Below, one piece after another: positions 4,350-41,439 of a stretch of 64,000 nt of DNA. Below the pieces are notes generated by a model. It did no database searches and was not told where the DNA came from. It saw only the letters and a list, made by a program, of their open reading frames with translations. A program made the translations under genes and the position numbers. Source of the DNA: Siphonodentalium dalli (Eukaryota; Mollusca; Scaphopoda; Gadilida; Siphonodentaliidae); assembly GCA_032622095.1 (NCBI GenBank), contig CP136065.1:207926151-207990150 (forward strand). The letters are read 5' to 3'. The first letter of the stretch is position 1. Each line of letters opens with the position of its first letter.

Positions 4350-4750
4350 TTAACCCTTTACCCAACAGAAGGGCCCTGTGCCAATGCATTCTCCTATATA
4401 TGCGAGTCGACCATAGGTCGCCTCGCATATATAAGAGAATGCATTGGCTTAACACATTAAAAATTATAAAATTGTTAAAGAATGTAAGAAAAAATGGTAA
4501 AAAGTGTTAAAAAAAAGATTTTTTTTAGGCCAATGCATTCTCTTATATATGCGAGGCGACCTATGGTCGACTCGCATATATAAGAGAATGCATTGGCACA
4601 GGGCATAACTGTAACTATCACAATATGGTCAAGGAGCCGGTTCCAATGGTATCCATATTTGTATGGTTCTATTGAGACAGACCGAAGATATTTTAGGCTG
4701 TTGAAGCTTTATTTGGCCGGTTTTGGCCGGTTTGTTGGGTAAAGGGTTAA
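4350..4750. mobile_element. TTAA-flanked MITE carrying two palindromic modules, copy 1
   Basis: The element is bounded by TTAACCCTTTACCCAACA and its reverse complement. The TTAA ends fit the target preference of piggyBac-type transposases. It carries two near-perfect 69-bp hairpins (4380-4448 and 4529-4597) with AT-rich spacer between. Copy 2 at 30338-30723 is almost identical apart from a short A/T-run indel. No coding capacity. Confidence 0.85.
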
Positions 4751-5479
4751 TAGCATATATACACAAACTGTTAACATGGAAATGTCCAGGTATGAAGCTA
4801 ATTAAGAGAACAAACACACCTGAGTGACCAGGTGACTGTTTATCACCTGTGTGATACCTGTCAGGATCCCTGATACAAGAGTTGATATTACCTTCCCAGG
4901 CAGGTAGACTGGCCAAGTGTTTATTTTATCTGTGAATGCACACAGGTGACTGTTTGGCACAGTAATTAGGTGAGGCGGCCCACCATTAGATACGATTCAG
5001 TATTGTACCCTTCTGATATCTTAATACAACAATATGAAAAGACCAGCGGTAAATTGAATCAAGGGTATTTCCTCCGTGTGTCAATTCTAACCATGTCAAT
5101 GAATGTTATCTAATTCGACTTTAAGCCATTGAATAGGCTGCGGAACAGAGATGGGAAGACTAAATGGCCTTTACGAATAAAATTATAGCAATTCATTTTG
5201 TACGTTTTTGTGGCCATGTTAGAAATGAGTCATGGTTAAACTTCTATTTAGAATCACAGTTGTGTACCCTATTACAGGGAGAAAAATCCAACAGTTTATT
5301 TTAAATCCAGACTTATTATAAGATGACACCAGTTGGGAAAACTACATGTCTATTTTTGACGAACAACTTCAATGATGAACCCGTCTTTTGCTGTCAAATA
5401 TAACTTTTTGTCATAAAAGTCACAGGCAGGGAAATAAAATAAACCTTGAGTGTTTTCCATTTCATCGAACAACTCATGG

Positions 5480-5625
5480 ATGCCGGATAAGGGGGGCATG
5501 TGGGGGCACTTGCCCCCCTTGCCCTGGCTCAGGGAAGTCCAGTGGGTACCCAAAAAGTGCCCACCTGACTGGTTTGCCCCCCTTGCCCTTTGGTGCTTCC
5601 GGCGTCCCTGGAACAACTAGTTCTA
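5480..5625. repeat. GC-rich repeat fragment
   Basis: GGGGGCACTTGCCCCCCTTG occurs in a block also hinted at near 11490-11560 (GGGGGCTGGAGCCCCCACATG). The open frames on both strands here come from this repeat, not from a gene. Confidence 0.45.
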
Positions 5626-5995
5626 TTAATCAAGTATATACAATGTTAATACTATATAAAGCTTTAGATATTTTCTCTGGTCTTAAATGGAAACACATGG
5701 TAGCAAATAGTCTGTAGTACCTGAATTAATAATGGAATACAAGGAAATTGATAGCAACAATTTCCATTTGCTGAGATACATGTAAAGTCTACAGATATCT
5801 TTAGATCAAAATTAGTTTTGCTTTTTTTTATGAAAAACACCGATCAATTGGATGTGGAATAACTCAAGAATTTTAAATGACTGGAGAGACTCATTTGTAT
5901 AAAGGTAAGAAATGATAGCAATGGTTAAATGAAATTTATTCGCCAGGCTGCGCCAGGTAGAAAATTGAATTTTTTTTCTATTATTGCCTGATGTA

Positions 5996-6208
5996 CAGTA
6001 ATGCCCCAAGTAATCGACTCTTTAACTACAGCAGAATTATGGGTAACTTTTCAGGATTTAGTCGTAAATATGGCTTGTTGCCATTCATCGGAAAGCGATC
6101 CCCGAGAGCTTTCCGAAGAATGGCAACAAGCCATATTTCCGACTAAATCCTGAAAAGTTACCCATAATTCTGCAGTAGTTAAAGAGTCAATTACTTAGGG
6201 CACTGCTG
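5996..6208. mobile_element. Tc1/mariner-type palindromic MITE
   Basis: Flanked by TA on both sides (5994-5995, 6209-6210). The ends are CAGTAATGCCCC and its near complement, and arms of about 95 bp make almost the whole element one hairpin. A TA target and CAGT ends are hallmarks of Tc1/mariner. It lies about 115 bp after the FREM exon 2 donor. A relative is at 39687-39839. Confidence 0.8.
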
Positions 6209-6324
6209 TACTGTCATATATCCTGTACTATTATTCAACACTGTATTAGTATTATGTGCTCAAAAGTACATACATTGTACAAGTTACTGGTATATAGAAG
6301 AATATAGAATATTTAGAAACTTAC

Positions 6325-9300
6325 TTTGTGTCCATGTTTTGATGTGTCTAGATCCCCGTTCTGTATTTATGAGATATCCATGATGTGCAGGTGACGTAAT
6401 CCTGTAAAACAATAAATCCTGCGGACTGTCTCTGTCCAGTGATTTTAGAATCTTACTGCTAATGGGGTATCCGATGTCGCCAGCTTCATTAACAAAAGTT
6501 AAGGTTGACACGCCGCGGTTAACAGAGATTTGAGGAATTCCGTTATCAACTGGAAACACTTCGATATTCATAATCTGAGGATGACGTGTCGAAGACGAAG
6601 TATCAGGGAAAACATAGAAATCTGAATGCGTGCCGTCAGTAACAGTGAAAGAAAAACTATCCCACATTGTTTCTGTTCCATCATGCTGGTAGCTGATCAA
6701 ATTTTTCTCTACATCAGCCATCGTGAAGGACGTGATAACTTTTGATACATTATGCAGGATATTACCATGAATAGGAAGTTGGGTTATGGTAAACACGATA
6801 TTTTTAGAGTTGGTATCTCGATCTTCGGCACCCAGTTCAAACGGTGTGATGAGCTTATTGTCACCTTCCTTCAGTTTCAGTGCTTGGTACATCAGAACTG
6901 GTTTCTTGTTATCGACATCACTAAGGGATATCCTAAATGTTCGTGCAACAGGGTTATGGCCATCGGTGACCTCAAACTCAAAACTATCCATCTTCATTTC
7001 ATCAGGACTTGTGTGGACATATCTGATTTTGTTAGCGGCTAATTCGATTTGATAAAAGCCAGCGATAGGCACACCTGGGTTGTCGACTCTTTCGAGATGG
7101 CCCCTAGTTGGAGTTCGAGTGATAGTAAACATAAGATTTTCATCTGGCGTGTTCATGTCCGTCCCTCCGATTATATCTGTTGATAAAATTATACTGCCTC
7201 CTTCTGGTAACTCAACACCTTTGTTCACAACATGTGGATATATCATATCCACGCCTTCAACGGTGACATAAAAATATCGATCGATCAGAGGATTGAGTCC
7301 GTCGGTGATGTCAAACTTTATAAGGTCTCTAACACCTTCCTGGCCTGTGTGTATGTATCGAACCCGCCTATCGTCGATGTCACGCTGTGTGAAGTTTGAT
7401 TTAAGTGTCAAATTTTTCATATCATTGTGGTGTAGCATTAATTGTAAGTGACCATGTCTTGGAACTTTTCGTACAATAAATGTTATATTCGGGTCGAAAG
7501 AGTCCAAATCTTCAGCCTTAAGTTCATGGTTTGTGATGAACTTCGCTTCGCCTGCTTTTTCTATCTCAAGTCCATTATTAATTGTTAATCTTGGCGTCTC
7601 GTCGTCCACAGGTACGATTATGATAGGAACTGTTTTTGTAACATTAAAAATGCCGTCCGTGAGGAAGAATTCAAATGAGTCGCTAGTTGTTTCCGATTCA
7701 TCATGAGCATAGTTGATATGAGATGGGTTGGAGATATCAGCTATTGTAAATGTCGTAACCGGATACATGCCAGAGGTATTCTGCTGTAATATGTCGCCAT
7801 GGGTTGGTCGCTTAGTAATGGTGAACGTAAGCAGATCTGGTGGCTTGTCATCATCAATAGCATTCAAGATCGGCAAATCAATCATCAGTGTCATCCCTTC
7901 TAGTACTAAAAACTTATAAAGTGAAACGACTGGTTCCTCGTCATTTGATGCATATATGGTTATTGGAAAGAAAAAGTTTGGTGAAAAATTTTGTCCATCA
8001 GAACATCGGAAATTAAATCGGTCTTCCCTGGGTTCTACACCTTTGTGAACGCTTTGGACATAGTTAATATTCCCGTCCCTAATGTCTTGTATTGAAAACG
8101 CTGAAATCGGCATTCCGACTCTTGATTTCTCTGATCCTGGGGCTGGTGAAATGTTTTCTATGTAGCCATATGTTGGCTGCACTATTACTGTGCACACTAT
8201 GTCCTGTATTGGGCTGTCAATATCTTCGGCATCCAGCATATCTGGCAGAATTGGAGATTTTTTACCTTCATCTACAGCAAATTCCTGGTCAAAGTTGAGG
8301 CTGACAATAGGTGCTACGGTATCTTTTGGAACGATATCAACATTGACATTAATTCTGTTGATCCTGCTTCCATCAACTACCAGTCTATCAGAGTTGTCCG
8401 TTATCCGCAGATTAAAAGAATCATTCCGACCAGCAAGACCAACCTCTCCACCTGTATGTTTGTACTGCATTAAGTTACCTAGAACATCGTAATGGGAGAA
8501 TCTAATAACAGGACGGCCATGTCTCAAAATAGCGCCCTCATATGGCTGCCTGTCCAGCAAATATGTTACCATCAAATCTTCCGCTCCGGAAAATTTAAGC
8601 TCCTTGGAGGTCAAGGTCACTGCATCGCCTTCAGGAACTTCCAGGGATAAGGATAGAATTCCAGCTCCAGGCAACACTATGTCTGGTTTTTCATCAGATC
8701 TGATGTTAATTCTGAATATTGTCGGCATGTGATGAACACCATCAGTGACGTCAATTTTAAACTGATCTTTTTCAGCTTCAATATCTCGGTTGACATACTT
8801 AATTTTTCCACCACTTATGTCCTCAGGTGTGAATTCATCGAAAACCATCAATGGATACTCTTCCTTCAGTAGAATGCCATAATCTGGAAGCTCTGTGATA
8901 ATGTACCTTATAAGGTGCATGTCCGTATCTTCATCCTTAACTTCCAGCATGTGTGAAGTGATAGTGATTACCTCCCCTTCGAGAACCTGTGATCCTTTAT
9001 TGATCACCACTGGTGGCTTATTGTCGATGGGTTTTAATGTTATTGTTAACTTTTGATCAGGGAGGACATTACCAGATACATCGCTCACTTGGAAGTTGAA
9101 TTGAATTTTTCTTTGAGTTAATCCCAGCTCGGAACTTGGAGGTTGATAGCAGACTTTAAGGTGGTTGACTTGAGCTTGACTGAACTCATAAAGTTCAGTC
9201 GCCGGGTACTCACACAAAACAAGTTTACCGGCATTCAGTGGAGAATTTACATCTGTATCAAATGGACGTTTCGTTACAGAGTATCTCAAATGCCTATCAT

Positions 9301-9875
9301 CGCTATCATCATCAGTGTATCTCAAATACTTTCGTCGAAATTCCGTCAGTTGAAACTCGTTGACGTCCATTTTATGTGTTGATGAAGGATATATGTAAGG
9401 AGGTTGATCGTCCACTGGTTGAATTTTTACAACAAATTCCTCAACTGCTGATTCATTAGGAGGATCCCCACCATCAAGGACTCTAAATTTAATTCTATCG
9501 ATGACGAAATCCGATCTATGAGGACCAATATGACGGTAGAATATTTTACCATCCGTAATATCTTTCTGTGTGAACTGGTCCACAGGTAATTCGTAAACAC
9601 CGTTGATGTACTCCCAATTTTCTGCATCTGGAGGCATAACATACTGACGTTTTAGAATCACTCCCTCGGTTGAGTATGGCGGCTCCAGGATGAATCGAAT
9701 CTCTTCATCTATACTGTCCAGATCTGTAGCACTAAGAAAGAGATCGGTGATTTCTATCAGTTCATTCTTATGCAGCTCAACTCCAGTGTTGACAGTTAAA
9801 ATCGGAGCACTGTCGTCAACTGGGTAGATGGTGACCGGGAACAGGAACTCAACCTCATGCTTGCCATCCGTCATC
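6325..9875 (-). CDS. FREM2-like: FREM-family extracellular matrix protein, exon 2 (CSPG repeats 2-12)
   Basis: This 3551-bp exon is a single open frame of 1183 codons. It completes CSPG repeat 2 and encodes repeats 3 to 11 and most of 12. Each repeat shows the family pattern: a start like VVxNxGVxLxEG, a central HGxL turn, then DIxxGxIxYxH and DSFxFxVTDG before a closing PVDDxxP. The acceptor is at 9877-9876 after a pyrimidine-rich tract ending GATTTCAG. The donor is AAA|GTAAGT at 6324. Joining to exon 1 rebuilds an arginine codon (AG|G) and gives FRMTDG, the CSPG consensus, which strongly supports the splice. The exon ends in phase 1 inside repeat 12. Twelve CSPG repeats is the number in FRAS1, FREM1, FREM2 and FREM3; in FRAS1/FREM2, Calx-beta domains follow, and these would lie beyond the window. 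Vertebrate FREM2 also packs its CSPG repeats into a giant early exon. These proteins act in basement membranes. Which FREM paralogue this is cannot be settled without the C-terminus. Confidence 0.93.
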
Positions 9876-9900
9876 CTGAAATCAAAGAGAAGATTGTACC

Positions 9901-10350
9901 CAAGCCTGGATATACATGTACTGTGTCTGACATTTGCAGAATGAAGTCCCCAGAGGGTGAATTTAGTGATGCTGCCCCGCAAAGTTGGCTAGCAGCACCA
10001 AATTTACCCTCTGGGAACCTCATTCTGCTTAAGCCTCATCTTCTGGGAAGTATCTATAGTTTCAAATTAACGTTGTTTTTAGTTACTTTTTCACTTTTGT
10101 TCAGTTTCTGTATGCCCTAATTTGCAGAAGATAAATGCATAATCGAGGTGACTGATGGGGTGAACATTACCAACTTCAACTGGGGAACTTCAATCTGATT
10201 CTAGGTCTCCTATAGTGCTTGAGGCCTAAGAAGAATGAGGTTCCAAGAGGGTGAATTTGGTGATGCTAACCCTCTGTGCAGGATAGCGTCACTAAATTCA
10301 CCCTCTGGCAACCTCATTCTGCAAATGTCAGACACAGTATATCCAGATTT
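9901..10350. mobile_element. MULE-like MITE at the FREM acceptor
   Basis: The direct repeat GATTGTACC flanks it (9892-9900 and 10351-10359), a 9-bp duplication as made by Mutator-like transposases. The termini form inverted repeats of about 65 bp (CTGGATATAC...TGTGTCTGACATTTGCAGAA). Each half folds again into its own hairpin (about 9935-10028 and 10231-10322). It is non-coding. Confidence 0.75.
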
Positions 10351-11705
10351 GATTGTACCATGGATATTAGAAATAGTGGGTGCAAATTAAATATCTGAGA
10401 AAAAAACATTTTCCCATATATACACTTTTCTCTTAAGCCATGAAAAATAAATACCCTGACAAGTTAATTTTTCTTGAAATTAGGCTGGGATACCATACTC
10501 AAAATATTTCCAAAGTAAGACTTACTGAGATAATTAAAAAGCCAGAGGAGTATTTTATTGCACACCCATTGGTTTTAATATTGTTGCGAAATACAACAAA
10601 ATACCAGTACAGAAGGTTTGCAATTTTAAATAAACTAGGCAGTAGCTACAACAAATTTATTAGTTTGCAAGATACAGTCTTCTGGGTGTGTAATAAACAC
10701 AGAACGACACAATGATATGAAGTGGTTAACCAATTATCAAACTCTTTTGTATTGCCTCGAAGTACGAGAACCAGAATGAGTCACAATAAACTTGTGCAAT
10801 AACGGTGAACAAGTTCACACAGGTGAACAAGTTCACACACAAGGGTGGCAGCACAGGAGTGTGTCGTAAAAAATACAAATAAAAAAAATTCTAAATAAAA
10901 AAAGACAGATAATTAGGAGACAAATTACGCATGATGTTGGTTTAACACAACATGATTGCCAAGCAGGACATTGAGTTCATTTTTCAATACAAAAATAATT
11001 TTAAACTATTTGTTAAATATTGGACACGAGTGGAGACTTGTATTCAAATATACACAATATGCGATTGATTAGGGCAGACTGACATTAGATCTGTCAATAC
11101 ATGTAGAAGTTAAGATAATATGTTTGAAATCGAGGGTCGATCTTGTGGTAAATCGTGGACATCGAGCAGGTACTATCCATGAATTTTTTGTTTGTCTGTT
11201 TTTAAGTTGTCAAACAGTTAATCCTAGAATTGTTTATCAGATTGTAAAATATAGCTTTTACTCGATCAATTGGTATTGGCAATTTAGGAGTCATTTCAGG
11301 TGTTTGTGAGGTATGTGAATAGTGAACTCCCTTGTAAAAGCACTCATTTTTAATGCAGATTTTATTGTATATTTTTTTACTTGTTTTTAATGACATGCCC
11401 CTGCGGGTAGCAGAAGCACATAAAAATGTAAGGACAGGGCCAAACCTTCAAAAGGGCACATTTCTCAATGTAAATTGTACATTTGTCCAGGTGTCAGTTG
11501 AGGGCAAAGGGGGCTGGAGCCCCCACATGCCCCCTGCTCTTCCATCCCTGTTTAAACTCATGTCGTTTATCTATGTATTTCAGTTTTAGTCAGGGTTTAT
11601 GCTAGTCGGAATGTTTTTTTTTACTATTTAGTGGTAATGTTTTGTTCAGAAAAAGCTTATCTCATCCCACATATTATGAATAACCAGAAATATGGACCCA
11701 TATAA

Positions 11706-12640
11706 AAAGCCCCACTTAGATGCCTGCTATTCAATAGATAACCCTTTCTTGGCGGTAGCTGACTCCGAGCTGTGCTGGTGCAACATTAAAGACCCTGTGC
11801 CAATGCATTCTCTTATATATGCGAGTCGACCTTAGGTCGCCTCGCATATATAAAAGAATGCATTGGCCTAACAATTTTTTATCATTTTTTCTGATATTCT
11901 TCAAGAATTTTATCATTTTTTCTGATATTCTTCAAGAATTTTATCATTTTTTCTTTCATTTTTAACAATTTTATCAGTTTTTTTTATCAGTTTTTCTTAC
12001 ATTATCAATTTTAATAAGTTTTTCTTACATTCTTTAACAATTTTTATTATTTTTTATCATTATTTTTAACATTCTTTAACAATTTTTTAACATTCTTTAA
12101 CAATTTTTTAGCATTTTTAAAATTTGTTCTTACATTTTTTAACAATTACAAAAAATAATATAAAATTTGATAGGTCAATGCATTCTCTTATATATGCGAG
12201 ACGACCTATAGAAGCCCCCACTATGATGCCTGCCATTCAACATATAACCCTTTCTTGACGGGAGATGTGCTGATGCAACAATAAGACCCTGTGCCAATGC
12301 ATTCTCTTATATATGTGAGTCAACCTTAGATCACCTCACATACATGTATATATTAAGAGAATGCATTGGCTAAACAATTTTTTATCATTTTTCATAAATT
12401 TTTCTTACATTCTTTAACAATTTTATCATTCTTTCTTACATTCTTTGTCAATTTTAATAACTTTTTCTTACATTCTTCAACAATTTTTATTATTTTTTAT
12501 CATAATTTTTTACATTCTTTAAAAACAAATTTTCATTTTTTTTTTTTTTTTCTTACATTTTTTAACAATTACAAAAATAATATAAAATTTGTAAGGTCAA
12601 TGCATTCTCTTATATATGGGAGGCGACCTATGGTCTTGAA
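11706..12640. repeat. Two tandem copies of a palindromic-module element with AT-rich core
   Basis: Each copy starts with AAGCCCC...GATGCCTGC and a TGTGCTG(G/A)TGCAAC stretch, then the CCAATGCATTCTC hairpin (11799-11867; 12294-12370), then about 230-300 bp of T-rich sequence made of ACATTCTTTAACAATTTT variants. It ends in a half-module (12172-12210; 12595-12635). The period is about 500 bp. The phenylalanine-rich open frame here is low-complexity. Confidence 0.7.
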
Positions 12641-12962
12641 TGGGTTAAGCTGTTTTATGGTATTTAGTACAGTAAATAAGATTCATCACGATGGGATAGA
12701 ATTCTATGTTGACCTGTATTTCACATTATAAGCATCAAAAACCCAAACAAAATTTCCATAGTAGCATACACATGTATCTACATAACATGCAAAAGGACTT
12801 AAAGCCACATGGCGGTTTGCGCTCCAAAATATACCTAATAAAATTTGCTTTTGAACTTTTCCTGGTATCAAAAATGCGCATGCCTCGAGTCTACTATTTT
12901 CGTAAGAAGTCAGCTGATTTTTCCCAGGCCGCCAAATATTCCTTGTGGTGAAAAATAACAGA

Positions 12963-13866
12963 TTAAAACAAGAGCATCGCTAGGGCGTGGCAAAATACGC
13001 CCTTTAGCCATTTCGAATTGTACTATCGCAAAATAAGATAATACTTTGGGCTTACATTTAAAGAAAATCTGATATACCCCTAATTTCAATGCCAAAATGT
13101 GGTCAAATTCTAAGTCGAAAAATGGCCATAACTCATGTTAAAATAATTAGACAGAACCTATATTCAAACTTGGCGTGTAGTTTTAGCTGGGAAATACACA
13201 TACCAGCATTGGTTCAGCTCAAATAATAAAAACTGGAGTTATCGGTCGGAAACCAAAATGTTATGAAATTGGTCAAATTCTAAGTTGAAAAAGGGCCGTA
13301 ACTCATGTAAAAATAATTGGACGGAACCGATATTCGAACTTGACCTGTATCTTTAGCTGGGAAATACACATACCAACTTTGGTTGAGATAAAATAATCCA
13401 AACTGGAGTTATCGGTCGGAAACCAAAAATATTAACAGACGGTCAAATTCTAAGTCGAAAAAGGGCCGTAACTCATGTAAAAATAATTGGACGGAATCCA
13501 TATTCGAACTTGGCCTGTATCTTTTGCTGAGAAATACACATACCAACTTTGGTTCAGATCAAATAATCCAAACTGGAGTTATCGGTCGGAAACCAAAAAT
13601 GTTAACAGACAGTAAAATTCTAAGTCGAAAAAGGGCCGTAACTCATGTAAAAATAATTGGACATAACCCATATTCGAACTTGGCCTGTATCTTTAGCTGG
13701 GAAATACACATACCAACTTTGGTTCAGATCAAATAATCCAAACTGGAGTTATCGATCGGAAACCAAAAATGTTAACGGACGGACGGACGGACGGACAGAC
13801 GGACAGACAGACGGACGGACAGACTGATAACATAATACGACCTTTTTTTCAAAAAGGGCGTATAAA
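12963..13866 (+). mobile_element. Pearl-like (Helentron-associated) element with 170-bp tandem units
   Basis: Starts ACAAGAGCATCGCTAGGGCG. It contains four units of about 169-170 bp (starting near 13103, 13272, 13441 and 13611) with ATTCTAAGTCGAAAAAGGGC and CTGGAGTTATCGGTCGGAAA in each. A (GGAC)n microsatellite (13777-13824) follows and the element ends near GGGCGTATAAAA. This layout matches the pearl family of bivalves, later linked to Helentrons. It interrupts another repeat: the flanks ACAGATT and CTCTGAGCTTTGATGGGTG are contiguous at 30109-30157. Confidence 0.75.
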
Positions 13867-13990
13867 AATTTATATCTAATAACTCTGAGCTTTGATGGGT
13901 GCATGGTTTCCTCGACTCACAAAAATATTTTACCACTAAAGCTGAAGAAATAGTAATTTAGGGCCGTTTATTCGGATTATGCATCTTTAA
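13867..13990. repeat. Right part of a TTAA-type element interrupted by the pearl-like insertion
   Basis: CTCTGAGCTTTGATGGGTG, CTCGACTCA and the end TTCGGATTATGCATCT-TTAA (13987-13990) parallel 30128-30253. The left part is before 12963 (GTGGTGAAAAATAACAGATT). Confidence 0.65.
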
Positions 13991-15169
13991 GAAGAGAATC
14001 ATAAAAAGTTATTCATTGATCTGTCAGGTCTGAGATCTGAGTCTCAGTACAATTGAAACTTAATTGTATTGATGTGCAATTGATTTTACAAATGTGAATT
14101 TTGCATTTGACAGGGGTCTAGGACCATAAATATAATCCTAGTGGTGTAAATTGTGCTGGATTATTATTGATATCACCACAATTTAAATGTATTACAGGCA
14201 ATCAAGTGTGCTGAAAATTAAATGGCATATTGCAATGTATACACAGCATGGCTGAATTGGACTGAGTGCTGATTGTATTGTCAACTATATGTAAATTGAC
14301 GGCCAAATTCACATTTATTAATAATTGGACTCAAGCGCAATTTAATTGCACAATCAATTTTGTTAAAGAACAATCAATTACACTGAAACACAATTAAATT
14401 GTACTGCAGTGGATACTCCAAATACATTTTAGTGAAATATAACTACAAAATGTGTATTGCCCTCAAAGTGGGTTGAAGTAAGCCAACTGATCAAATGAAA
14501 AGCAGTGTTGTTTGACTGGGATTTACAGAGTTACTGGTCATCTGACAGGGGTGCTTCAGTTTAATTAATTTCCCTCACAATGAATTGCGCTTAAGTGCAC
14601 TTCAGAAGTTTATGAATTGCACTGAAGTACAATGGCCTCTCATAAAACTTAAAAGTGTGTGAATGGTACTAGATATAAAAAAAGAGCAATTGGAAATGTA
14701 TGTGATCAGATTTCTCTCCACCCACCCCCCATCCTCCAACCACCACCATGACAATTAATGAATTATATGCCACCTTCCTCACTATATCAGAGAATTACAA
14801 AGTTCAATACTAGAATATGTACAGTACACTTCTATCTTACTGTATATACACTATCATCACAGGGGTGGGCAGATATGATGAGTGGGGGTGGGGTCGAGGG
14901 AAGAGGAGCTTTCTGGTGAATTTCCAAGCCCCTGTGCTTCTATCATGTTGTATATTTAATTATTTTAATTGTGTTTATCAGATAATTGCCTACGACTGTT
15001 GGTACAAGAGGTGGGTCAGTCTCAGCCTGTGTGATTCTGTGAGGGGTGGGACATTATAGGACCCCACCCACCCCACACACAAATACCCACTAGGCACATC
15101 CCTTTCTTTACAACAGAGTCATAAAATAGTGGTGTGTGTCATTATTACATTTTCATAAATATTGCACAC

Positions 15170-16608
15170 CTGAATATTATATTATCACTGCTGCTGTCGC
15201 TGTGGTCGTGGTGATAACTAACCCTCCCCGCTTCGAGGTCCGCTGGGGTGAAATAATCCTGTCCATCCGGAAGTCGCAGGTGCCCGTGACGTAATCCACC
15301 AGCGACCTCTACTGTGACATCGTCCAGGTTATCCTCGTCGGAAATCCGCAAATTCGCGCCACTGCTCAGCTCACGTGACTGGCCTTCGAAGAGTTGTACC
15401 CCTTTGTTCGTTGTGGCAACTGGCGCCATGGTGTTTTTTGGATTCACTTCGATCAGCAGTTGAAAAGGATCTGACGATAATCCGTCTGAATCAATTATTT
15501 GAAAATCTACATTAAATAGCCGCGTTCGATCCGAATCGATGGCAGGTGGCTTGTATGCGATTTTCAGTTCGTCCAAATCGCGCTGGTAGAATGATTTGAG
15601 CGGTTGGTTGCGATCATCGGTGCTAACTAATGACCCCTCATTTTCGCCGAGTGGCCGAGTGATGTTGAATATCAGGTCACTGGGTGACGTTTCTGCGTCC
15701 TCTGCAGCTAGAATTTCAGGTGTTATAGCTGTCATCACGAACTGATCGACGACATCCCCTTCCATTACTAACATAGCTTGGGTGCTAGCTCGTGGACGGG
15801 TGTTACCGGCAGACTCGATCAATTTCACGGTAACTTGAAAATATTCTTGTTTCAATAAATTTCCTTCCGAATCTAGTAATTCCACGACCATTGGGATAAA
15901 ATCCTTATCGGGTGAGGTCTGAATAATATGTTGGTATGCTACTCCCATTCTTAGAAACCGATCGCAGTCGACCAATGAAAGGGACGCAGGGTCGCTCCTC
16001 AAACGTCCGTATTTTGGCCGGCCGCTCGACCGCCGAAGTACAGACAGCTTGCAGATCTCGTCGTCTCTGTCGAATGTGAACTCCATTGTTTCATCCGTTA
16101 TTGGGGTGCTAACCCCCAGGACTTCATTGACTATGATAGGTTTGTTTTTAGTGACGACTTCTAACTGAACAAACTCCACCGTGACGTCGAGTGTGAATGG
16201 AATAATCAGCGTTTCTGTCTGTGAATCATACCTAATTTGCAGACTAACTCTATCAGAACGGGGAGTCCGAATCCCTAAATGAGTGTATTGCACATCGCCG
16301 AGTTTGAAATCACATGGGAAAGATGAAGGGGTTAATCTCCCAGGCCTTTGAGCCAGTGCATCGTCGTGTATCACAGCAACTTCACATTTATCCTCCCTTC
16401 GTTTATAAATCCTTAAATCCCGATCAGGGTTAACGAAAAACGTTCTCCCAAACGGCGCAGATATTCCATTATTTTGCACAAGAATTTGTGTCTTGTGGAG
16501 TCCGGCACTAATAGAGTCAATGAACACAATGAACAATATAGTCCACACACAGTGAAGGCCTGACAGCATTCGTAAGGCCCCTGGGGGGTCTGGTAATCCT
16601 GGGGCCAT
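15170..16608 (-). CDS. FREM2-like: FREM-family extracellular matrix protein, exon 1 (signal peptide, N-terminal region, CSPG 1 and part of 2)
   Basis: The start is the ATG at 16608. The frame extends one codon further to GTG, and an in-frame TGA lies twelve codons above the ATG, so the protein begins here or at Met14 (16569). Either start precedes a hydrophobic signal sequence (VWTILFIVFIDSISAG). Next comes the FREM N-terminal segment, including QNNGISAPFGRTFFVNPDRDL, comparable to the NxGxxxPxGRxxxxxPxRDL stretch of the family. The first CSPG repeat spans roughly residues 272-395 and the second begins near 396. FRAS1-type VWC and furin-like repeats are absent, so this is FREM-type. Sea urchin ECM3 is a known invertebrate relative. 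The exon ends at TTCAG|GTGTGC (intron from 15169), splitting an Arg codon that is completed by exon 2. Base composition is clearly more GC-rich than the surrounding intron. Confidence 0.92.
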
Positions 16609-30253: not shown

Positions 30254-30337
30254 CCACTGGACAACGGGACATTTCTTAAGTTAGTTAAAAATGTGTGCCT
30301 CGGTCCATTTATTATATTATTTGCTACTAAAATATGT

Positions 30338-30723
30338 TTAACCCTTTACCCAACAGAAGGGCCCTGTGCCAATGCATTCTCTTATATATGCGAGTCGACC
30401 ATAGGTCGCCTCGCATATATAAGAGAATGCATTGGCTTAACACATTAAAAATTATAAAATTGTTAAAGAATGTAAGAAAAAATGGTAAAAAGTGTTTTTA
30501 GGCCAATGCATTCTCTTATATATGCGAGGCGACCTATGGTCGACTCGCATATATAAGAGAATGCATTGGCACAGGGCATAACTGTAACTATCACAATGTG
30601 GTCAAGGAGCCGGTTCCAATGATATCCATATTTGTATGGTTTTATTGAGACAGACCGAAGATATTTTAGGCTGTTGAAGCTTTATTTGGCCGGTTTTGGC
30701 CGGTTTGTTGGGTAAAGGGTTAA
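30338..30723. mobile_element. TTAA-flanked MITE carrying two palindromic modules, copy 2
   Basis: TTAACCCTTTACCCAACA ends with TTAA boundaries (30338-30341, 30720-30723). Hairpins are at 30368-30436 and 30502-30570. It is nearly identical to 4350-4750, implying recent movement. It lies about 190 bp upstream of the FReD exon acceptor, so inside that gene's last intron. Confidence 0.88.
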
Positions 30724-30912
30724 ACCCAATCCCATCCTCATGATTTCCACAGGTATTATACGATAACAATAACATGCATGTTGTACCATCCATACACCCA
30801 CAATTGATTCCGATGAAGAGTCTTATATTTCACCAGTCCTATATCCTATCTCGACACTCACACATTCGTCTTGTTCATCACACATTAATAATATCCATGC
30901 AAATCTTTGCAG

Positions 30913-31490
30913 CGTGTAACGATTTCACTGGGAATTGGGGAACATTCAAGAAAGTCTACCCAACAGAGGACTCGGCTGGTATTGACGTATTCTGCTACAT
31001 ACAGAATGTCCTTTTAATCTTTGCCAGACAGACTGGTGTCTCTCCTAATCTCTTTAAATCTGACTGGGAAAGCTCCAAACAAGGACTCGGAACGGTGACA
31101 GACACTCAAGGTAGTGGGACATACTGGCTCGGCAATGATCACATACATGAAATCACACAGACAGCAAAACCACTGAAGCTCAGCATAACAGCGGATGACA
31201 GTGCAACGGTTTGGTATCACAACATCCGGATTGGGGACGAAACAGAACTGTATACAGCGACATTCACATCTTACAGTTTCCAAGGCCTCCCAATGGAGCC
31301 ATCTTTGCGTAACCAAAGTCAGTTTAGCGTCTGGAATACGGATCCGACCAGCTGCTCGAACATGTATCAGGCGGGATTCTGGTATTCTCAAGCTGACTGC
31401 ATCTCGCCGTATTTGAGGGGAAACTACAAGAAGAACACTGTTAACACTGTACCATATAGTAACATATGGGGCGAACTATGGGAAGAATGA
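30913..31490 (+). CDS. Fibrinogen-related domain (FReD) protein, 3' terminal exon
   Basis: An acceptor (AATCTTTGCAG, AG at 30911-30912) opens a 192-codon frame in phase 1 that ends in TGA at 31490. The order of motifs is that of a fibrinogen C-terminal globe: CNDF near the start, a GTYWLGNDHIHEIT block about residues 68-82 (family YWLGNDxIHxLT), then IRIGDETELYTATFTSYS, then a cysteine pair in SCSNMYQAGFWYSQADC corresponding to the CAxxYxxxWWYxxC region, and a GNY tail. The calcium loop is degenerate (NTDPTS instead of DxDxD) and the C-terminus stops about 15-20 residues early, so ligand binding may differ. The usual WTVIQRR segment is replaced by VLLIFARQ. The upstream ATG codons of the long open frame lie in the intron. 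I could not find the preceding exons. Likely secreted, lectin-like; ligand unknown. Confidence 0.8.
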
Positions 31491-32055
31491 AGGTTGAGAA
31501 ATCAGTGAAAAATGTGCATGATGTGCGGAGATGGAGTTTTATCTATTAATACTGTGTCTTTTTATTTGGGTTGAAGGGGGAATTCGGGAATGTCAATTTC
31601 AAATTATCAATAGTTATGTATCTGACTATTACAGGAGGTTGTATAGTTGATTAGTTCAACTCAATGAACAGCTCTCTCTCTATATCTCTCTCCCCCTCTC
31701 TCACTCTCTCTCTCTGATTCACATTATGTGCTGTACACATCCACAACAATGTGATTGACTGAAAAACATTCAATTTTCATTGATGGGTCTGGATGGATGT
31801 GTAATAAAATGTATTTCAAACCATTTCTGTGAGTAACATTCCGGACATTTCACATTTACAACATTTGTTCAAATTTTATTAGTGTACAACAAAACTCAGC
31901 AAGGGATTCACCAAAATGTATATGTAATAAATGTTTAATTTTCATATGGACGATGCTACATGTATGTGATAGCAAGAAAAGATATTTTCATCAATATTAG
32001 ACAAATAATAACTCAAGTCAAGCCTGTAATAAAGAGAATTCATACATTAATTGGC
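31491..32055 (+). other. 3' UTR and polyadenylation signals of the FReD gene
   Basis: After the stop codon there is no further reading frame. AATAAA hexamers occur at 31803-31808, about 31927-31932 and 32028-32033, any of which could direct 3' end formation. A CT-rich microsatellite is at about 31672-31718. Confidence 0.45.
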
Positions 32056-33580
32056 GTTGTGTCTTTTGACTGGGGATAATCACTTTAGACTCCAGTAAAA
32101 TGGGTTTCACCACATATTGTCGAAGCCACAAGCGGGCCCGTGTCACGACACATCAATGAGAAAACTACGGGCGTCACATTGCACGAGTTAAAGCGATTCC
32201 AGGACTTCAACAATACGAATGTGACATAGTGAGTAGTTGGATATTAACAGCCAGACTGGTGCTATATGATGTCATTCGCATTGATTTTTTTCAGGAATTC
32301 CGAAATCGACTCAATTTATGGAAATTTGCCAAAGTATGAATATTCATACCGAATTGTATCGAATTCAACTCGGCAAATGTCGAAGTATTCAGCTAATATA
32401 ACTGCTACTATACCAACCGTTCCCGGTGAACAATGCTTTCTGTTAACAACGGTTTATTAAAAAACAATAATTGTGCATCTGATAGAACGAGAGAGATAAC
32501 TCATATTGTGTCTTAAGACAGTATAGCGCCACCACCTCCACTTATGTTGCTAACTTGTTCAGTAACGTAAATAATGTTAACTTTTATAGAACATTTATCA
32601 TCAGAGTTCATCTACTGTTAAGTTTCTTTTATATAACAAATCATGTATCTTCTAGATTTATATTTTATTGACATCGTATTTATCTCATAACATATCTGTT
32701 GTCAGTTGTCTTCCCCACCATCCACCAATGTGGGCCTCATTGGGGCGAACAGAAACATCAATCTATACCAAGTCTTCGTTCACTCAATATCTTTGACTCG
32801 TCTGTCTTGTGGTGTTGCCTGAAACCAACAATTCCCCTCCCCGGTTCATTTTGGTTCCCTAATATGTCGTCCGATGTGCATTTCATGATAACTGCGTTAC
32901 TTCACAACAGTTCTGAATGGTTTATGTTACGCTTTCAGCAGAATGCTGGCTGTAGCTTGACAGCCTGAGAAAATTGGTGAGTATCTGGTCCAATGTTTTC
33001 ATCACGTACATTCTCCGTCGAGGGCCAATTTGTTTGACTGGGCCCCACACATGTCCTCGCTTTATCTTTCTGACAAAAACATCATAATTACATACATGGT
33101 AAGATAACGTGCGCCATGGAATATGTTAGCGTTGACACCCTATATAGGGTGCCGTTAAGACTAACCAGCTTTTAGAATGAACCAATTCTTCCCTTTCTGT
33201 TTATCGATTTGCAATCAGCACACGATAATTTTACGTTCAATAAAAATCACTCTTGGATTGCAATATAGATATTTACAATTCCTATTCTACGATATTACCA
33301 ACTGGCGGTGTATTGCAAAAAAACATGTCAATTCACAACATCGTCACAGCTATATCTAACTGTATGCTATTTTGTGGTGGATATAATCAAACACGTAAAC
33401 GACCTCAACCATTATGTGCCGAGATTCACCCAACAATCATGTCAGCAAACCAATTTAATGAGACAATCCCAGACCTGGCGAGCGAGTGGGCAGCAGTATT
33501 TGTATTCTGAACAATGTAGCTTAATTGTTTGATGGTCACACGCCGCTGAGCATGTTGCAAGATGAATATATATGTGTAGG
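32056..33580. other. Intergenic stretch, nothing recognised
   Basis: Short open frames (for example at 32266, 32699 and 33177) show no domain or splice context. No repeat structure stands out by eye. Confidence 0.45.
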
Positions 33581-33581
33581 G

Positions 33582-34260
33582 CTAGGATTCTTCTTATACC
33601 TTAGTTGGGTAATATTCACCCAAGTCCAAGATGGCGGCCAAAAATAGCCACAGTAAATTGAAAAATCGCTGCAAATCGCTGATTTTAATATCAGTGATCG
33701 TTATTTTCTCGACAATCCCACGCCTGCTTACTATTGTGAGTTGGGAACACTAAGTTGAAGAACTGTCCTTATATCACATCCAAATAAAAGTGCTCCGAAT
33801 CCAAAATGGCGCCCACAATGGCGGACAGATTTTGAAAAAAATCACGGAAAATCCCTCACATTCACATCATTGGGCATTATTGTCGAGGCAACCCCACCCA
33901 TGCTCACAATCGAGTTGGAAATACTGAGTTGAAGAAATTACATTACATCTCGAGTTATCTCGACAATAATGCCAAATGATGTGACAATGAGTGAATTTCG
34001 GTGATCTTTCAAAATCTGTCCGCCATTGTGGACGCCATTTTTAATTTGGGGGACTTTTATTTGGATGCGATATCAGGACAGTTCTTCGCCTCAGTGTTCC
34101 CAACTCACAATAGTAAGCATGTGTGGAGTTGTCGTGACAATAACGCTCACTGATGTTAAATCCTCGATTTTCGGCGATTTTTCTATTTATGGTGGCCATT
34201 TTGGCAGCGATCTTGGATTTAGGTGAATATTCCTCTACTCACGTATAAGAGGAATCCTAG
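33582..34260. repeat. Long inverted repeat 1, with continuing homology to about 34620
   Basis: CTAGGATTCTTCTTATACC at the left is mirrored by TATAAGAGGAATCCTAG at the right, with arms of about 320 bp. CCAAGATGGCGGCCAAA sits near the left end, and further AATGGCGCCC/GTGGACGCCATT pairs lie within. Sequence from 34260 to about 34620 matches the right arm of the large inverted repeat (50560-51005). Confidence 0.75.
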
Positions 34261-34620
34261 GTCGAGTATCTCCTGCATATATATATTATTTTTTTTAGCG
34301 TCGATTCAGCTTTCACCGGATTTTATCGGCATTGGGAAATCGGACAAAATATCCAGCAAGGAATGTATGTTATGGTCCCATTGTGTTCATAAATGACTCT
34401 TTTATACGATAAATGTATAAAATCACGCCAAGATGTCCACGTTTTCCCACAGAGACACACGAAATGTGGTGAAATGTAAAAACATATATAGCAATTTTGA
34501 CCATCTTGGCCGCGCCATATTGGAGTTTGGTGTCGGATTTCTGGCTAATTTGTAAGGGTTGTATATTAGCATAACGAATCGAACAGAAAACAAGACCGCG
34601 TGTGATACCATCTTTTCTAT

Positions 34621-35329
34621 AACGGCGTAAAAAACGGATATACCCTTGTAAATTCCAAGTAAATGAATGATGTACCCCACTCACATTATACTCTGGTAAA
34701 TCCTGCTGTTTACCATTACACACAGAACATTAACCAACATGGGAGCCTATGTACCAGCAATTTTGAGATTGGTTAGACTCCACTTTGCAGAGTTGTTTCC
34801 GTTTTTGGACTTAAATATACAAAAACCCAATCCACCTAAATTCTTGTCCGTGGTTGAAATAAGTTTTGTAGGATCGGTAGTGTAAGTCTGAACTGCTACA
34901 AGGACAACATACCAGACTTTAGTCTGGAAATAGGATTAAGATGCATACGTTATCATTCCCCTTGTATCTCTTGCATTATTATTATGACATTACCTCACCT
35001 CATTCGAAATCAAAGGATATGCGTCATTAGCTACCACACAACATAAATACTAGAGAATGTTGTATTCGGTTATTCACAAAATCCATCTCCGACTGGAACC
35101 AACCCATAAAAAGCACCATTGTTGTATATCCACGCTTTGAAGTATAACTGACGACGTTTGAAGTAAAGCCTTTTTAAAGAGCTATTTTTTCCTCGAATAA
35201 ATATATATTGACTAAATAATTGATGTATTCAGGAATTAAAAAAAATAATACTAACATTTAAAGAGCGTTTTTCCAGAAGAAGTGATTTTCTACAGTATGT
35301 TCTGATTTATAAGGGTTTTACCCATGTAT
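34621..35329. other. Intergenic stretch, nothing recognised
   Basis: AT-rich sequence without domain, repeat unit or RNA signature visible by eye. Confidence 0.4.
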
Positions 35330-35690
35330 GTCCTGTTTCCCAGCATTTTACGAGAGCAAAGTACACCATGCCTTTACTTGTATGTAATTTACATGGGTGT
35401 GTCCTTTTTTTTTTACATGGGTGTACATGGCTTTTACCAGAGTATATCATTGTTAACCTGACTTTACCATGATTTACTTTGAATTAACAAGGGTATGTCC
35501 ATTTTACATGGCCTTTACCTGAGTATATCATTGTTAACCTGACTTTACCACAATTGATTTGGAATTTACTTGTCTTTTACATGACTTTTTATCAGAGTAT
35601 AGAATTGTACACCTGACTTTACTACATCTTTACTTGGAATTTATAGGGGTATGCCATTTTTACATGGGTATTTACATTACTTTTATCCAC
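35330..35690 (+). repeat. Degenerate ~80-bp tandem repeat
   Basis: TTTTACCAGAGTATATCATT plus GTTAACCTGACTTTACCA recurs near 35431, 35514 and 35590. Related scraps reappear at 36325-36450, so intervening sequence (35690-36325) probably inserted into the array. Confidence 0.6.
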
Positions 35691-36165
35691 CGCTCACTAC
35701 CTCTATTGCCTACATAAAGCCTGCCTAATAACCGTTACGTTTATCACGTCAAAGTAGCTTTATTAGGTCAACGTATCTTTATTAGGTTAGTACTACTTTC
35801 ATGACGTAATTGCATATGCAAATTGCGCAGGTAACAACGGACGTCAACCGACCTGAATGACGTCGTTGTGATTTTGGGACCTTTTTATCGTCCATATTTC
35901 ACCGCAATTGATACAAAATTCGTAATCGGATATGTGTTTTCGCTCTAAAACATCTATAAACCATTAGCTGAAGGTCAGCTTAGAATAACTATTAAAAATC
36001 CCAACGAACTATTTCGCTCTAAGCTGCACTCCGGTTTTTCCACGTCATGAATACTAATTAGTTTGCTTGACCTAATAAATGTAAGGGCGTCAATGAAGTA
36101 ACGAATGTAAAACTGAGGAAAATGACATATTTACCGCACAAAATGCATGTTTTGTGCGATGGATA

Positions 36166-36320
36166 AATAAAATATGTAGCTAATGTTGTCGCTAAAACTG
36201 CTTATGTCCGCTCGGGGGATTTGGCATCTATTGGACTCGGCAGAGCCTCGCCCAATAGATGCTCAAATCCCCCTCACGGACATAAACATTTTAAGCGACG
36301 ACACTGGCTACATATTCTAT
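36166..36320. mobile_element. Palindromic foldback element
   Basis: AATATGTAGC, GTCGCT, TTATGTCCG and GGGGGATTTG on the left are mirrored on the right (CAAATCCCCC, CGGACATAA, AGCGACGAC, GGCTACATATT), with a short central CTATTGG/CCAATAG pair. A smaller palindrome, CGCACAAAATGCATGTTTTG, lies just left at about 36136. Confidence 0.65.
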
Positions 36321-36849
36321 ATTTATCAGAGTATATCATTGTAAACCTGACTTCTACCAGAGTATCTTTATTGTAAACCTGACTTTACCAAATTTTACCA
36401 GTGTATAGAGCCTGGTAAAAATAGTTTACCGGGCTTTTACCAGAGTGTTTTTATAAGGGTATACTTGTCACATTGTTGATAGATAGGCGTTTACACCGAT
36501 AATGTGTGCGATTTTGACGATCGGCCACCGAAAACAATCCATTTATTGAAGCTAAATAACAATGTCGTAAGCAATATTATCAGTTCCTTTGTACCGGTTA
36601 GTTGCCTAGAAACCAATTACCAATTATGCGCATAGTTCTCAAAAGTAGTGTTTAAATGTTGCAATATTCATGAAGGGGAGAGGCTATGATTTCGAGTGGT
36701 GTATAATATGTATTGTTTCATTGCGTAAAACGCGAGTAAATTGAGCTTATATATCTATTCCTCATTCCTGTTACTGAAAATAGTCATTCTGTTACTCGGA
36801 AGTTGTTCCTGTTCCTCGTTCCGTTCCTGTTACTCCAAATAGTCAATCC

Positions 36850-37577
36850 CTATATATGTGTGCGTGCATGTGTATGTGGCCTCGGTGTGTGCGCGCCTGG
36901 GTGTGTAATCATGGTTGTGCACCCGCGTAAATAAGCTTTATATTTGTGTGTAATGTGCGTATCTAATATGTGTGTGTGTAAGGGTGTTTATGTGCAAGCT
37001 GATGAGAGGGTGCGCGTGTATGCGTTATGTGTGTCTATCTTTGATATGAAGGTGGTGGGCATCATCGTTGCATGTTTTTTGTTTTGTTTTGTGTTTCAGC
37101 CAGCATATAACGAAGTGCATACGTGGTTATATGAATGTATCAATATGAGAAAACTTATGTGTGTTTAATGTTGTAATTGTGTGCCTGTGCGAGATTGTTT
37201 GGATGAGTGCTTGTGTTTCATTGGTGGCGGGAATTATTAGTTACTTTCCTTTCTATATTATTATCTTGCACGCGCCCTAATAATGCTGCGGTATGGGATT
37301 TATTGTCAAGTTTTTGTGCGTGCTTGTTTTTATGTTTTTTTTCTTGGTTTTTATTTATTTAGTTTATTATTTCTTTATTTCTTTATTATGTTTTATTTAG
37401 TTTTTGTTCAACCAGCATATAACGAAGAGCGTATGTGGCTATGTGAATGTATCACATGAGAGGACTTGTGCGTGTGTTTAATGTTGTAATTGTGTGCCTG
37501 TGCGAGATTGTTTGGATGAGTGCTTGTGTTTCATTGGTGGCGGGAATTATTAGTTACTTTCCTTTCTATATTATTAT
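36850..37577. repeat. TG-rich sequence and a 166-bp direct repeat
   Basis: GTGT/GCGC-rich simple sequence occupies 36855-37030. CAGCATATAACGAAG...GGTGGCGGGAATTATTAG occurs at 37100-37264 and again at 37414-37577 with few differences, a spacing of about 313 bp. The open frame at 36944 is simple-sequence derived. Confidence 0.65.
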
Positions 37578-37790
37578 GTTGTAATTTGATTATAACTCCT
37601 GGGAGTTTATTTAAAACATCTGAGAACTATCCACGCACGTACAATTCATTTTTATGGTTTTTACTCCTCAGTACAAGAATGATAACTCTATAATAATCTA
37701 GAATTATTCCTCTTCAAACAGAACGTAACAAACTCTCTCTGACCCTCACACAATTATATTTTAAGGCCAAAACTCCGACGACGGTGATTT

Positions 37791-38255
37791 TTGTCCCCCG
37801 ACATTTCCGTCGGAGGACTATAGTAATGACCCTCGTCCGTCCGCCGCCCGTCCGTCCGTCTTGACGTCCGTCTGGAACTTTTGGCCGAGCCTGTATTCTA
37901 TCATTTTCTGGTCAAATTAAAAAAAAACTTGTCACATATATCAACCGGCATGGGTACCTGCGCACCTGCGATTTTGAGTTCGGTCGAACTCATTTTGGCG
38001 GAGTTATTGCCCTTTTTCGACATAGAATCGTACACCCTGGGTGTATCTTTTGTCCGAGTCTGTATTCTGTCATTTTCTGGTAATTTGTTTTAAAAACTTA
38101 GCACATATATCAACCAGCATGGGAATGCGCACCTACGATTTTGAGTTCAGTCGGGGTCATTTTGACGGTTATTGCCCTTTTTCGATATAGAATCGTACAT
38201 CCTGGGACGGATCTTTTGTCTCAACCTGTATTCTTTCATATTCTGGTAAAAAGAA
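37791..38255 (+). mobile_element. Pearl-like element with (GTCC)n and ~170-bp units
   Basis: Begins GTCCCCCGACATTTCCGTCG (a small hairpin), then CGTCCGTCC microsatellite. Units with CCTGTATTCTATCATTTTCT starting near 37888, 38060 and 38226 follow. It sits within the repeat seen intact at 23214-23312, directly after GATTTTT. Confidence 0.65.
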
Positions 38256-38329
38256 AATGAGCAGAACTGGGCGATGTAAGTAAAGCATACCATAATATTT
38301 CACCTGAATAGAGCCATTGTTATCACTTT

Positions 38330-38800
38330 GGCGCAAAATGGCCACCAAAGTGGCGGCCAAAATATGGAAATTTGTAGATATTGCCTCAATGTGGACTGAA
38401 ACCGTTTTCACGGCGTGGTTGATGTGTATTATTGGCTAATGTGCGAACTATTCATTTAGTCTTGAACATTTGTGGTGCACCTTAGTTAATTGTGACTATT
38501 GTAATCACTTACATTACCTGAAATATTTTGATTTTTTTCTATTTGCAAACTTGCCATCAAAGTTGACAAAACTTCACTGTTCAGGTTACGACCATGTTTT
38601 CAAGAAAAAATTAAACTATCTTTGCTATCAAATAGTTCGTAAGCCAATCCTGAAAAATTCAACTTTCGTTGCACACGCCCCTCGCTTTTTTCATTTCTAT
38701 ATATCAAAATGACGGGCGTCATCTGTCGGACGCGATGATACTTATCCGCCATTGTAAAAGGTGTCAATAGGTAATAACAACCAAGGTAGACTACGCTGAG
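38330..38800. repeat. Fragment related to the 58.6-kb inverted repeat
   Basis: CAAAATGGCCACCAAAGTGG and CGGCCAAAATATGGAAATTT parallel 58630-58680 (AAAATGGCCGACAAAATATGG). The remainder to about 39680 has nothing recognisable. Confidence 0.45.
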
Positions 38801-39686
38801 CCCCATATTTCAAAATTTCCTCCATCCTTTATATGCATATACTGGAGCACTGCAAATGTATTTGAAGTGATTGGTATCTGCTAAACTCATATAATGACAA
38901 GGGAGTGTGTACAAGTACGATAAAATAATAACTACTGTTGTATCTTTGTCCATTTTCTCATATATTTGAGAAGAATCTAATGAATTGTCCCAATTTTTTT
39001 ACAACTTTTCAAACTTGTTAGCATTTCAAGGTATTGTTTGTGTTCAACAATTTTATTGCTTTAAAAACTTTGCCTGTGAACAGTAGATAGGTAGAGATAA
39101 AAACCACTGCCAACGGAGCAACAATGAAGAAACATGGCATTCAACATTAACCATACCCCCTAAAATGCTAACTTTTTTATTTTTCGAAAATGATAAAATT
39201 AAGTAAATGTGATTGTTTGCTATCACAAATTAACATATTTGATGAACCCATGACGAATACCCATCAGTGAGTATCAATTAGCTTGAAATGAAATAAAAAA
39301 ATCATCTAAATTAACTTTTTGCGGGTCGATTTTGAGAATAAAAGTGGATTATCTCACAAACACATATATATGTAGATCTTTTCTGTGAAACCCTGTTCTT
39401 ATAATAGCATGACTGTCAGAATAAACTGCAAAGACGGTGAGGAATCAATTTTAGACCAGAAACAGACTTCAAAATCAATGTAGGAACAGTAAATTGAGCC
39501 GGAAATTCCTTCCTTTCCTTGCGATTGCGGGAAGTGGCTCTGATTTTATAGCAGCTACTATAGGCGGTATATTGTACTGCCAGAGTAAAATATCAAGGAT
39601 TACAACAAACGTTTCTATTTGTTTATTTGCTCAGGAAAATATGCCAAACAAGAATATATAAAAGTCCCAGATGGTGAAGGTATATA

Positions 39687-39839
39687 CAGTAATGCCCAAA
39701 GTAATTGACCACTTAACCACAGCAGAATTATGGGTAATTTTTCAGGATTTAGTCGGAAATATGGCTTATTGCCCATAATTACCCGTAATTACCCATAATT
39801 CTGCTGTGGTTAAGTGGTCAATTACTTTGGGCATTACTG
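39687..39839. mobile_element. Tc1/mariner-type palindromic MITE, second member
   Basis: TA dinucleotides flank it (39685-39686, 39840-39841). Ends CAGTAATGCCCAAAGTAATT and complement; the whole element is one hairpin, a shorter relative of 5996-6208. Confidence 0.85.
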
Positions 39840-39841
39840 TA

Positions 39842-40776
39842 TTCCTCAACATTCCACGAATGTCTTCCTATCACCCGAAATTATACCAATAAACTTACTG
39901 ACCAAACGATTGCACTATAGAGACAATTACTGTAAACAAAACATGATTGATTCTCTTCTTGATTTCAGCCAACGACCGAGTTGAATTCTCACGTATAGCG
40001 TTTTGACGAAACAAATGGGCAATATATTCTGGGTGAGACTCTAGCTGGTTTCACTAAATAAGGGGGAAATAATATTTATAGAACAAATATAACTTTCTTG
40101 GATAGCTGGTCATCAAAGGATGGAGTCATCCTATGTATAGTAACAACAATGTTTTGTACCAGTAGAACAATGTATTTCAAGTATACCAAACAATCAAAAT
40201 ACATTCTTTATAGATTAATCAAATCGTACATAGCTAAAACAGAGCGTTTTGAACAACCATCATAAAATCATTTGATTTGAAAAACAAGAGCAAAAAAACA
40301 AACAAAAATGTCTCATTACTGACAACCATCTCCATATTGCTCGGCGACTTCTAAAATATCGATTTTGGGTTACGGATGGAACACCAGCCACAGCAACTCA
40401 TGCACACACTCTGTATACCACACATAATATCTTGTAATTTTAATGTATTTGTTTTAAATGTATCAGGAGCGATGCTCCATGTAAGTTGTAAAAACATGTG
40501 CTTCAATTCCATATGTATTTGTGAATAATGTTTAGATACATTAAAATATGCTTCAAGTAAAGATGCTAAAGGCTGTCTCGTGTGTAATAATGTGCGCATT
40601 TTTTAAATGTAACAATGGGCCATTTTAGGTGGGGGATCTAATCGATCGCTTCACACAACTCTTCAACGTAATGAAGTTGGTGAAGTATCCCATACATAAA
40701 ACCGTCCTTTATGGTTGTGAATTGAACATTCTCCCTCAGCTAATGTAGCAACTTACTTTGAAATAAGTTGTATATT
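39842..40776. other. Stretch with nothing recognised
   Basis: AT-rich sequence. The minus-strand open frame at 40351-40599 has no recognisable domain. Confidence 0.4.
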
Positions 40777-41240
40777 ATGTGACCCGCCATATCAAATCCA
40801 GTCGTAAGTCGGGATTTTTTTTACCCTGTGCCAATGCATTCTCTTATATATGCGAGTCGACCATAGGTCGCCTCGCATATATAAGAGAATGCATTGGCCT
40901 AACAATTTTTTATCATTTTTTTTAAATAAATGTTTCTTACAATTTTTAGGACATAAAATAAAAAAACATCCATTACCCTGCAGGGAGCCCCACACATTTA
41001 TAGAAGCATATAGAAGAGTGTCGTCTGCTCATGTTTGTCTGGGGCTCTGTATGGGTGAAATTATAATATTGTTAAAGAATACAAGAATTTTTTTATTAAA
41101 ATTGTAAAAAATTGTTAGGCCAATGCATTCTCTTATATATGCGAGGCGATCTATGGTCGACTCGCATATATAAGAGAATGCATTGGCACAGGGTAAAAAA
41201 AATACCGACTTACGACTGGATTTGATATGGCGGGTCACAT
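40777..41240. mobile_element. Inverted-terminal-repeat element carrying the same palindromic modules
   Basis: Ends ATGTGACCCGCCATATCAAA and complement, with inverted ends of about 54 bp that run into hairpin modules at 40830-40898 and 41119-41187. Its termini are unlike the TTAA elements at 4350 and 30338, yet the modules are the same. A partial right half of another copy is at 41350-41439. Confidence 0.8.
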
Positions 41241-41349
41241 ATCAGGAACGCAAACAAGTGTGGGAGCATCGCCACACACCCGTATACAGCAACATGATTC
41301 ATGATATATACATGGCTTCATACAATCCTCACATAAATATATATACTAC

Positions 41350-41439
41350 CACCATAGGTCGCCTCGCATATATAAGAGAATGCATTGGCACAGGGTAACA
41401 AAATCCCGACACGACTGGATTTGATATGGCGGGTCACAT
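41350..41439. mobile_element. Partial right half of the ATGTGACCCGCC element
   Basis: Half of the hairpin module, then CACAGGGTAACAAAATCCCG and the GGCGGGTCACAT end. The left half is missing. Confidence 0.7.

Follow-up and report, generated by a model that had tools for sequence, protein, structure and literature searches.

How does one palindromic module come to lie inside small transposons whose ends differ? The question arises from a 64-kb stretch of DNA of the scaphopod Siphonodentalium dalli (hereafter the window), in which a 69-bp hairpin (27-bp arms, loop TCGACCATAGGTCGC) recurs in several elements. Pairing within each 69-bp hairpin is near-complete (-48 to -54, folded with RNA parameters), and two such hairpins, mirrored around an AT-rich spacer, form a module bounded by CCCTGTGCC and GGCACAGGG, whose mirrored 79-bp ends agree at 77 to 78 of 79 positions in both window copies of a TTAA element that we call A and in the TGTGACCC-ended element, B, at 40778-41239. 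A sequence-only reading had reported the hairpin, with its CCCTGTG edge, in these elements and at 11.7-12.6 kb; coordinates and sequence agree with it, and the genome-wide control gave 0 matches. Beyond the places that it listed, the window holds two older relatives of the module (~1021-1165 and 3979-4353), in elements that we assign to D/E. By position in the window, the features are:

1021-1165, forward strand: degraded old D/E element
3979-4353, forward strand: TTAA element of the old D/E type, its hairpins diverged; its right TTAA is common with the first A copy
4350-4750, forward strand: first copy of the A-family TTAA element, terminal inverted repeat TTAACCCTTTACCCAACA
4374-4603, forward strand: module in the first A copy, CCCTGTGCC...GGCACAGGG, with hairpins at 4380-4448 and 4529-4597
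11739-12209, forward strand: D/E-type element with a derived hairpin, intact at 11799-11867; broken right end
12245-12635, forward strand: second D/E-type copy, like that at 11739-12209; broken right end
30338-30723, forward strand: second copy of the A-family TTAA element
30362-30576, forward strand: module in the second A copy, with hairpins at 30368-30436 and 30502-30570
40778-41239, forward strand: B-family element, TGTGACCC...GGGTCACA, with TA on either flank
40824-41193, forward strand: module in B, with hairpins at 40830-40898 and 41119-41187 and a second hairpin unit in the spacer
41348-41439, forward strand: right half of a truncated B element, from the hairpin centre onwards

In the copies at 11.7-12.6 kb, the left hairpin is intact or slightly degraded and the right hairpin is broken. 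Telomere-like CCCTAA repeats lie within the centre of the old D/E element (4165-4235). The second hairpin unit in the B spacer (~40970-41070) measures ~85-100 bp, runs from ACCCTGCAGGGAGCCCCACACA to TGTGTGGGGCTCCCTGCAGGGT, and also occurs at loci L068 and L035, with TA on either side of it in L068. A long 12-bp tandem array of ATGTTACTCTGT occupies 61611-64000 and reaches the window end, and Rfam gave no match within the 64-kb window.

We searched the genome (2.23 Gb, nine contigs) for the module and found 163,581 exact occurrences of its outer 17-mer, CCCTGTGCCAATGCATT, and 174,900 matches to a 39-bp arm with at most 3 mismatches; since the reversed-pattern control gave 0, chance is excluded. 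As many as 64,360 of the 163,581 exact 17-mers sit 10-40 bp inward of a TTAACCCTT end, B ends number 28,608, and full-length A copies are ~99% identical throughout the genome. The module lies inside at least four element families, namely A, C and D/E, which have TTAACCCTTT ends and a TTAA target, and B, which has TGTGACCCGCC ends and an apparent 2-bp target, TA or TT. It starts at the same base, CCCTGTG, in every family (TCCTGTG in many E copies), and all the TTAA matches listed were A, C, D or E shoulders, the stretches between end and module, running straight into CCCTGTG. Among 68 independent arms, 50 carry full A, B or C shoulders and about a dozen are of the D/E type; a host shoulder is absent in two only (L035 and L045). 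Rare contexts amount to about 1,450 exact 34-mers genome-wide (1,448), most of those read being known families mutated at the junction, and solo modules are rare.

The sequence-only reading had called the ends of these elements unrelated, which is true of B against the rest but does not hold among A, C and D/E: all three begin TTAACCCTTT or a close variant of it, the copies at 11.7-12.6 kb included, and their terminal repeats begin CCC beside the TTAA. Such likeness would be expected if all families traced back to a single ancestral TTAA element, the termini of which later diverged or were swapped, with no capture involved. The shoulders, however, have no common sequence among the families, although the hairpins are the same. 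The A shoulder is TTAACCCTTTACCCAACAGAASGG on the left and, on the right, ~120-150 bp that begin CATAACTGTAAC; B has TGTGACCCGCCATATCAAATCCAGTCGTAAGTCGGGATTTTTTTTA at both sides; C has TTAACCCTTTGAGTGCCAGGTCCGATTTTTGTATCAACCCATATA on the left only, and one hairpin; and D/E have TTAACCCTTYCATGACNGGAGCT ends, followed inward by either of two linkers. B, moreover, has other ends and another target. What looked like one long C element (L033/L034; 1,829 bp) turned out to be two separate C copies face to face. At L060 and L063 (contig C1, ~4.496 and 4.550 Mb), the hairpin of a B-ended element is split by ~1.2 kb of cargo, consisting of GCC-rich inverted arms and an open reading frame that matches the Bcl-2 family (PF00452, E 1.8e-13) and that we read as a putative captured apoptosis-regulator-like gene.

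Elements without the module bear on the same point. We counted 20 left ends of C that do not run into the module and read 13 of them. At L096-L099, the 45-bp C repeat stands at both ends of an element whose centre is another palindrome, ATAATGTGATACATTGATGGAAAGAGCTCT, in whole or in part; L100 is related to these but shorter; and at L091 and L092, the 45-bp C repeat is joined straight to a C repeat. C therefore existed without the module, and the same ends occur with and without acquired DNA, as expected of a Pack-TIR or captured body. For A, no clean join was found among nine candidate left ends and six short joins: the nine left ends that do not continue into CCCTGTG all retain the module in mutated, rearranged or partly deleted form, and in most of the short joins the palindrome has collapsed, as in CCCTGTGCCAATGCATTGGCACAGGG. 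D/E yielded one short element without the module (L090), which may be a deletion product, given that a deletion intermediate, which shares GCGA, is seen at a similar locus. In the loci fetched, the B ends have the module next in line, except in L068, one end of which carries an insertion. The module-free versions of the TTAA elements for which the sequence-only reading had proposed to look are thus present for C, with the same 45-bp inverted repeat, and not for A. We also found one A/B chimera, L066, in which an A-right shoulder, the module, a B-right shoulder and an A end follow each other, and recombination can therefore exchange ends. The chimera and the failure to find a module-free A among the candidate ends are what one ancestor with exchanged ends would lead us to expect, and the sequence-only reading had named precisely this outcome, together with a lack of module-free forms, as fatal to its proposal; module-free C elements nevertheless exist, and those at L096-L100 keep the full C repeat. 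We consider descent from one ancestor without capture to be quite improbable.

What moves in these families could be seen most clearly for C. A C element of 256 bp is present in L023, where the same site in L016-L019, which belong to related units of 11-14 kb on contig C1, holds a single TTAA, and the whole TTAA element is therefore the mobile unit. The region itself (0.73-0.92 Mb, L016-L032) is made of large related units, ~11,175 and 14,558 bp apart, that differ in their transposon insertions. For the A element in L016, the counterpart site in L023-L032 reads TCAG, not TTAA, and offers no clean empty site. Most pairs of B flanks show TA or TT at both sides, i.e., 2 bp rather than a TTAA target.

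The module could instead be, or have been, a transposon with CCCTGTGCC ends and perhaps a TA target, which entered several MITEs and later became immobile, much as the sequence-only reading had proposed in the form of a foldback unit able to insert itself into other MITEs. The module does possess true terminal inverted repeats and an outer edge that does not change from one host family to the next; B reads TA/CCCTGTG...CACAGGG/TA, and the solo edges in L035 and L045 are flush and end in TA. Yet no target duplication around CCCTGTG...CACAGGG was found in A, D/E or C, where that reading had expected one: the edges are GGG/.../CAT in A and AAAA/.../TCTTT in D/E, and the TA pair of B is expected anyway because the B inverted repeat is symmetric. 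Direct insertion of the module into TTAA, recognizable by TTAACCCTGTGCC, is rare as well, with ~100 exact places in contigs C1-C3 and the start of C4, and module copies outside other elements, without target duplications, are confined to 2 of the 68 arms and to the 1,448 rare contexts. Single founder events may have been precise transpositions whose duplications were lost at founding. On balance, we regard a self-mobile module as unlikely, and a freely jumping foldback unit finds no support in these results.

The other proposal of the sequence-only reading, in which several transposon families acquired a cassette, fared better, as A, B and C share the same derived hairpin and a common spacer, and C is found without the module. 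We favor, as reasonably probable, an inverted-repeat passenger cassette that was captured by several non-autonomous transposon families and amplified by each family's transposase. The module is most likely a non-coding body of several non-autonomous DNA transposon families and no transposon in its own right.

The divergence of the hairpins suggests a direction for the spread of such a passenger cassette. One consensus, present without a mismatch in each of A, B and C, matches most intact hairpins of these three families at 96-100% identity. In ungapped comparison, the D and E hairpins reach identities of 43 to 99%, and many of them have another loop, CTCCCATAGGGAG. The old D/E copies L014 and L015 contain tandem hairpin units. 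The AT-rich spacer is common to A, B, C and derived E beyond shuffled controls, with no such sharing for old D/E. D/E are probably the source of the cassette, from which a derived form spread to the others, because the D/E hairpins are old and more diverged, an ordering that is based on divergence and not on a rooted tree. The cassette would have arisen in the old D/E TTAA family, after which its derived version would have been captured by A, by C (a pre-existing TTAA family) and by B (with unrelated ends and a different target). A transposase recognizing each family's ends would then amplify that family and carry the module along.

Capture may have occurred via template switching or gap repair at the stem foot, a route that we consider the likeliest with moderate confidence; the common capture edge in all families would then be explained because the stem begins CCCTGTG and breaks or polymerase switches would occur at its foot. 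Gap filling and fork switching have been described as capture routes for animal Pack-TIRs (PMC8277862). Broken shoulders were seen in 5 of the 68 independent arms, 2 of which break exactly at CCCTGTG (L035 and L045). Shoulderless bodies that stop exactly at CCCTGTG were found at these two loci and, in rare contexts, at L111, L113, L120 and L121; since the rare-context pattern picks breaks near CCCTGTG, only the two former exact-edge breaks are unselected. L121 carries a body without full B ends between copies of a ~95-bp flank, plus filler DNA, in an arrangement that resembles break repair. Among 27 A copies, gaps of at least 4 bp occur in the hairpin stretch in 12 and in the 100-bp shoulder in one, a count in which some gaps are variable spacer and for which 9 of the 27 copies were selected; the hairpins appear to be unstable. 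No capture intermediate for A, B or C was seen among the loci read.

As to the enzymes, the genome contains 128 Pfam matches to DDE_Tnp_1_7, and piggyBac transposase genes are abundant. No autonomous partner with A, C or D/E ends was found at the 12 piggyBac genes that we read, which have other or unidentified ends. The likeness of L069 and L073 to C is confined to TTAAC..GTTGAGTGCC, and L094 and L095, which have C ends and other contents, were rejected as autonomous partners, as there is no transposase inside. Because piggyBac-type transposases bind palindromes set asymmetrically within the ends (PMC11707139), the hairpins might be transposase-binding palindromes that were selected in each family, a role that is compatible with capture. 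The hairpin of A is indeed placed asymmetrically, lying 24 bp inside one end but at a much greater distance from the opposite end, and GCGACATAAGTCGC palindromes lie near the left end in 3 of the 12 piggyBac genes read. The palindrome sequences differ, however, B is not a TTAA element, and the module-free C elements transposed anyway, all of which makes such a binding role doubtful. An exchangeable "plug-in" that passes between transposon superfamilies via breaks at its own stem foot and boosts the amplification of the family acquiring it, for instance by aiding excision or transposase assembly, would go beyond a captured passenger, and we think it improbable.

The classification of MITEs by their ends assumes that ends and body have a common history, whereas here one body spans end families: small transposons can swap insides. 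Unrelated families will be lumped together in repeat libraries that rely on internal similarity. At a scale of ~160,000 arms, and with at least one family that has a different target, the modular assembly of small transposons becomes directly measurable, as junctions, chimeras and module-free relatives can all be counted here.

We found no earlier description of the cassette in the literature, in a search that left most subscription papers and the repeat databases outside its scope. Foldback (FB) elements have long inverted repeats that fold into large stems, unstable centres and a record of foreign DNA capture. The module resembles them in its long inverted repeats, large stems and unstable centre, but its foldback part is internal, bounded by the ends of other families, and gives no sign of moving alone. 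A, C and D/E resemble piggyBac-type TTAA MITEs in their TTAACCC...GGGTTAA ends, their lack of coding capacity and their very high copy number and, as seen for C, in the TTAA duplication and clean empty site; unlike such MITEs, the three families have a single hairpin cassette in common in their interior, which is also found in a fourth family, one with other ends. As in Pack-TIRs and chimeric TIR elements (Tan et al. 2021, PMC8277862), elements with terminal repeats have gained inner DNA, but the acquired DNA here is the repeat body of another element, present in several families and in tens of thousands of copies. The satellite and transposon networks of molluscs (PMC5139131) likewise place shared repeat units in elements of differing context, and some of the junctions fall within a palindrome; those networks join tandem satellite monomers with Helitrons, whereas here an inverted-repeat cassette resides in cut-and-paste elements.
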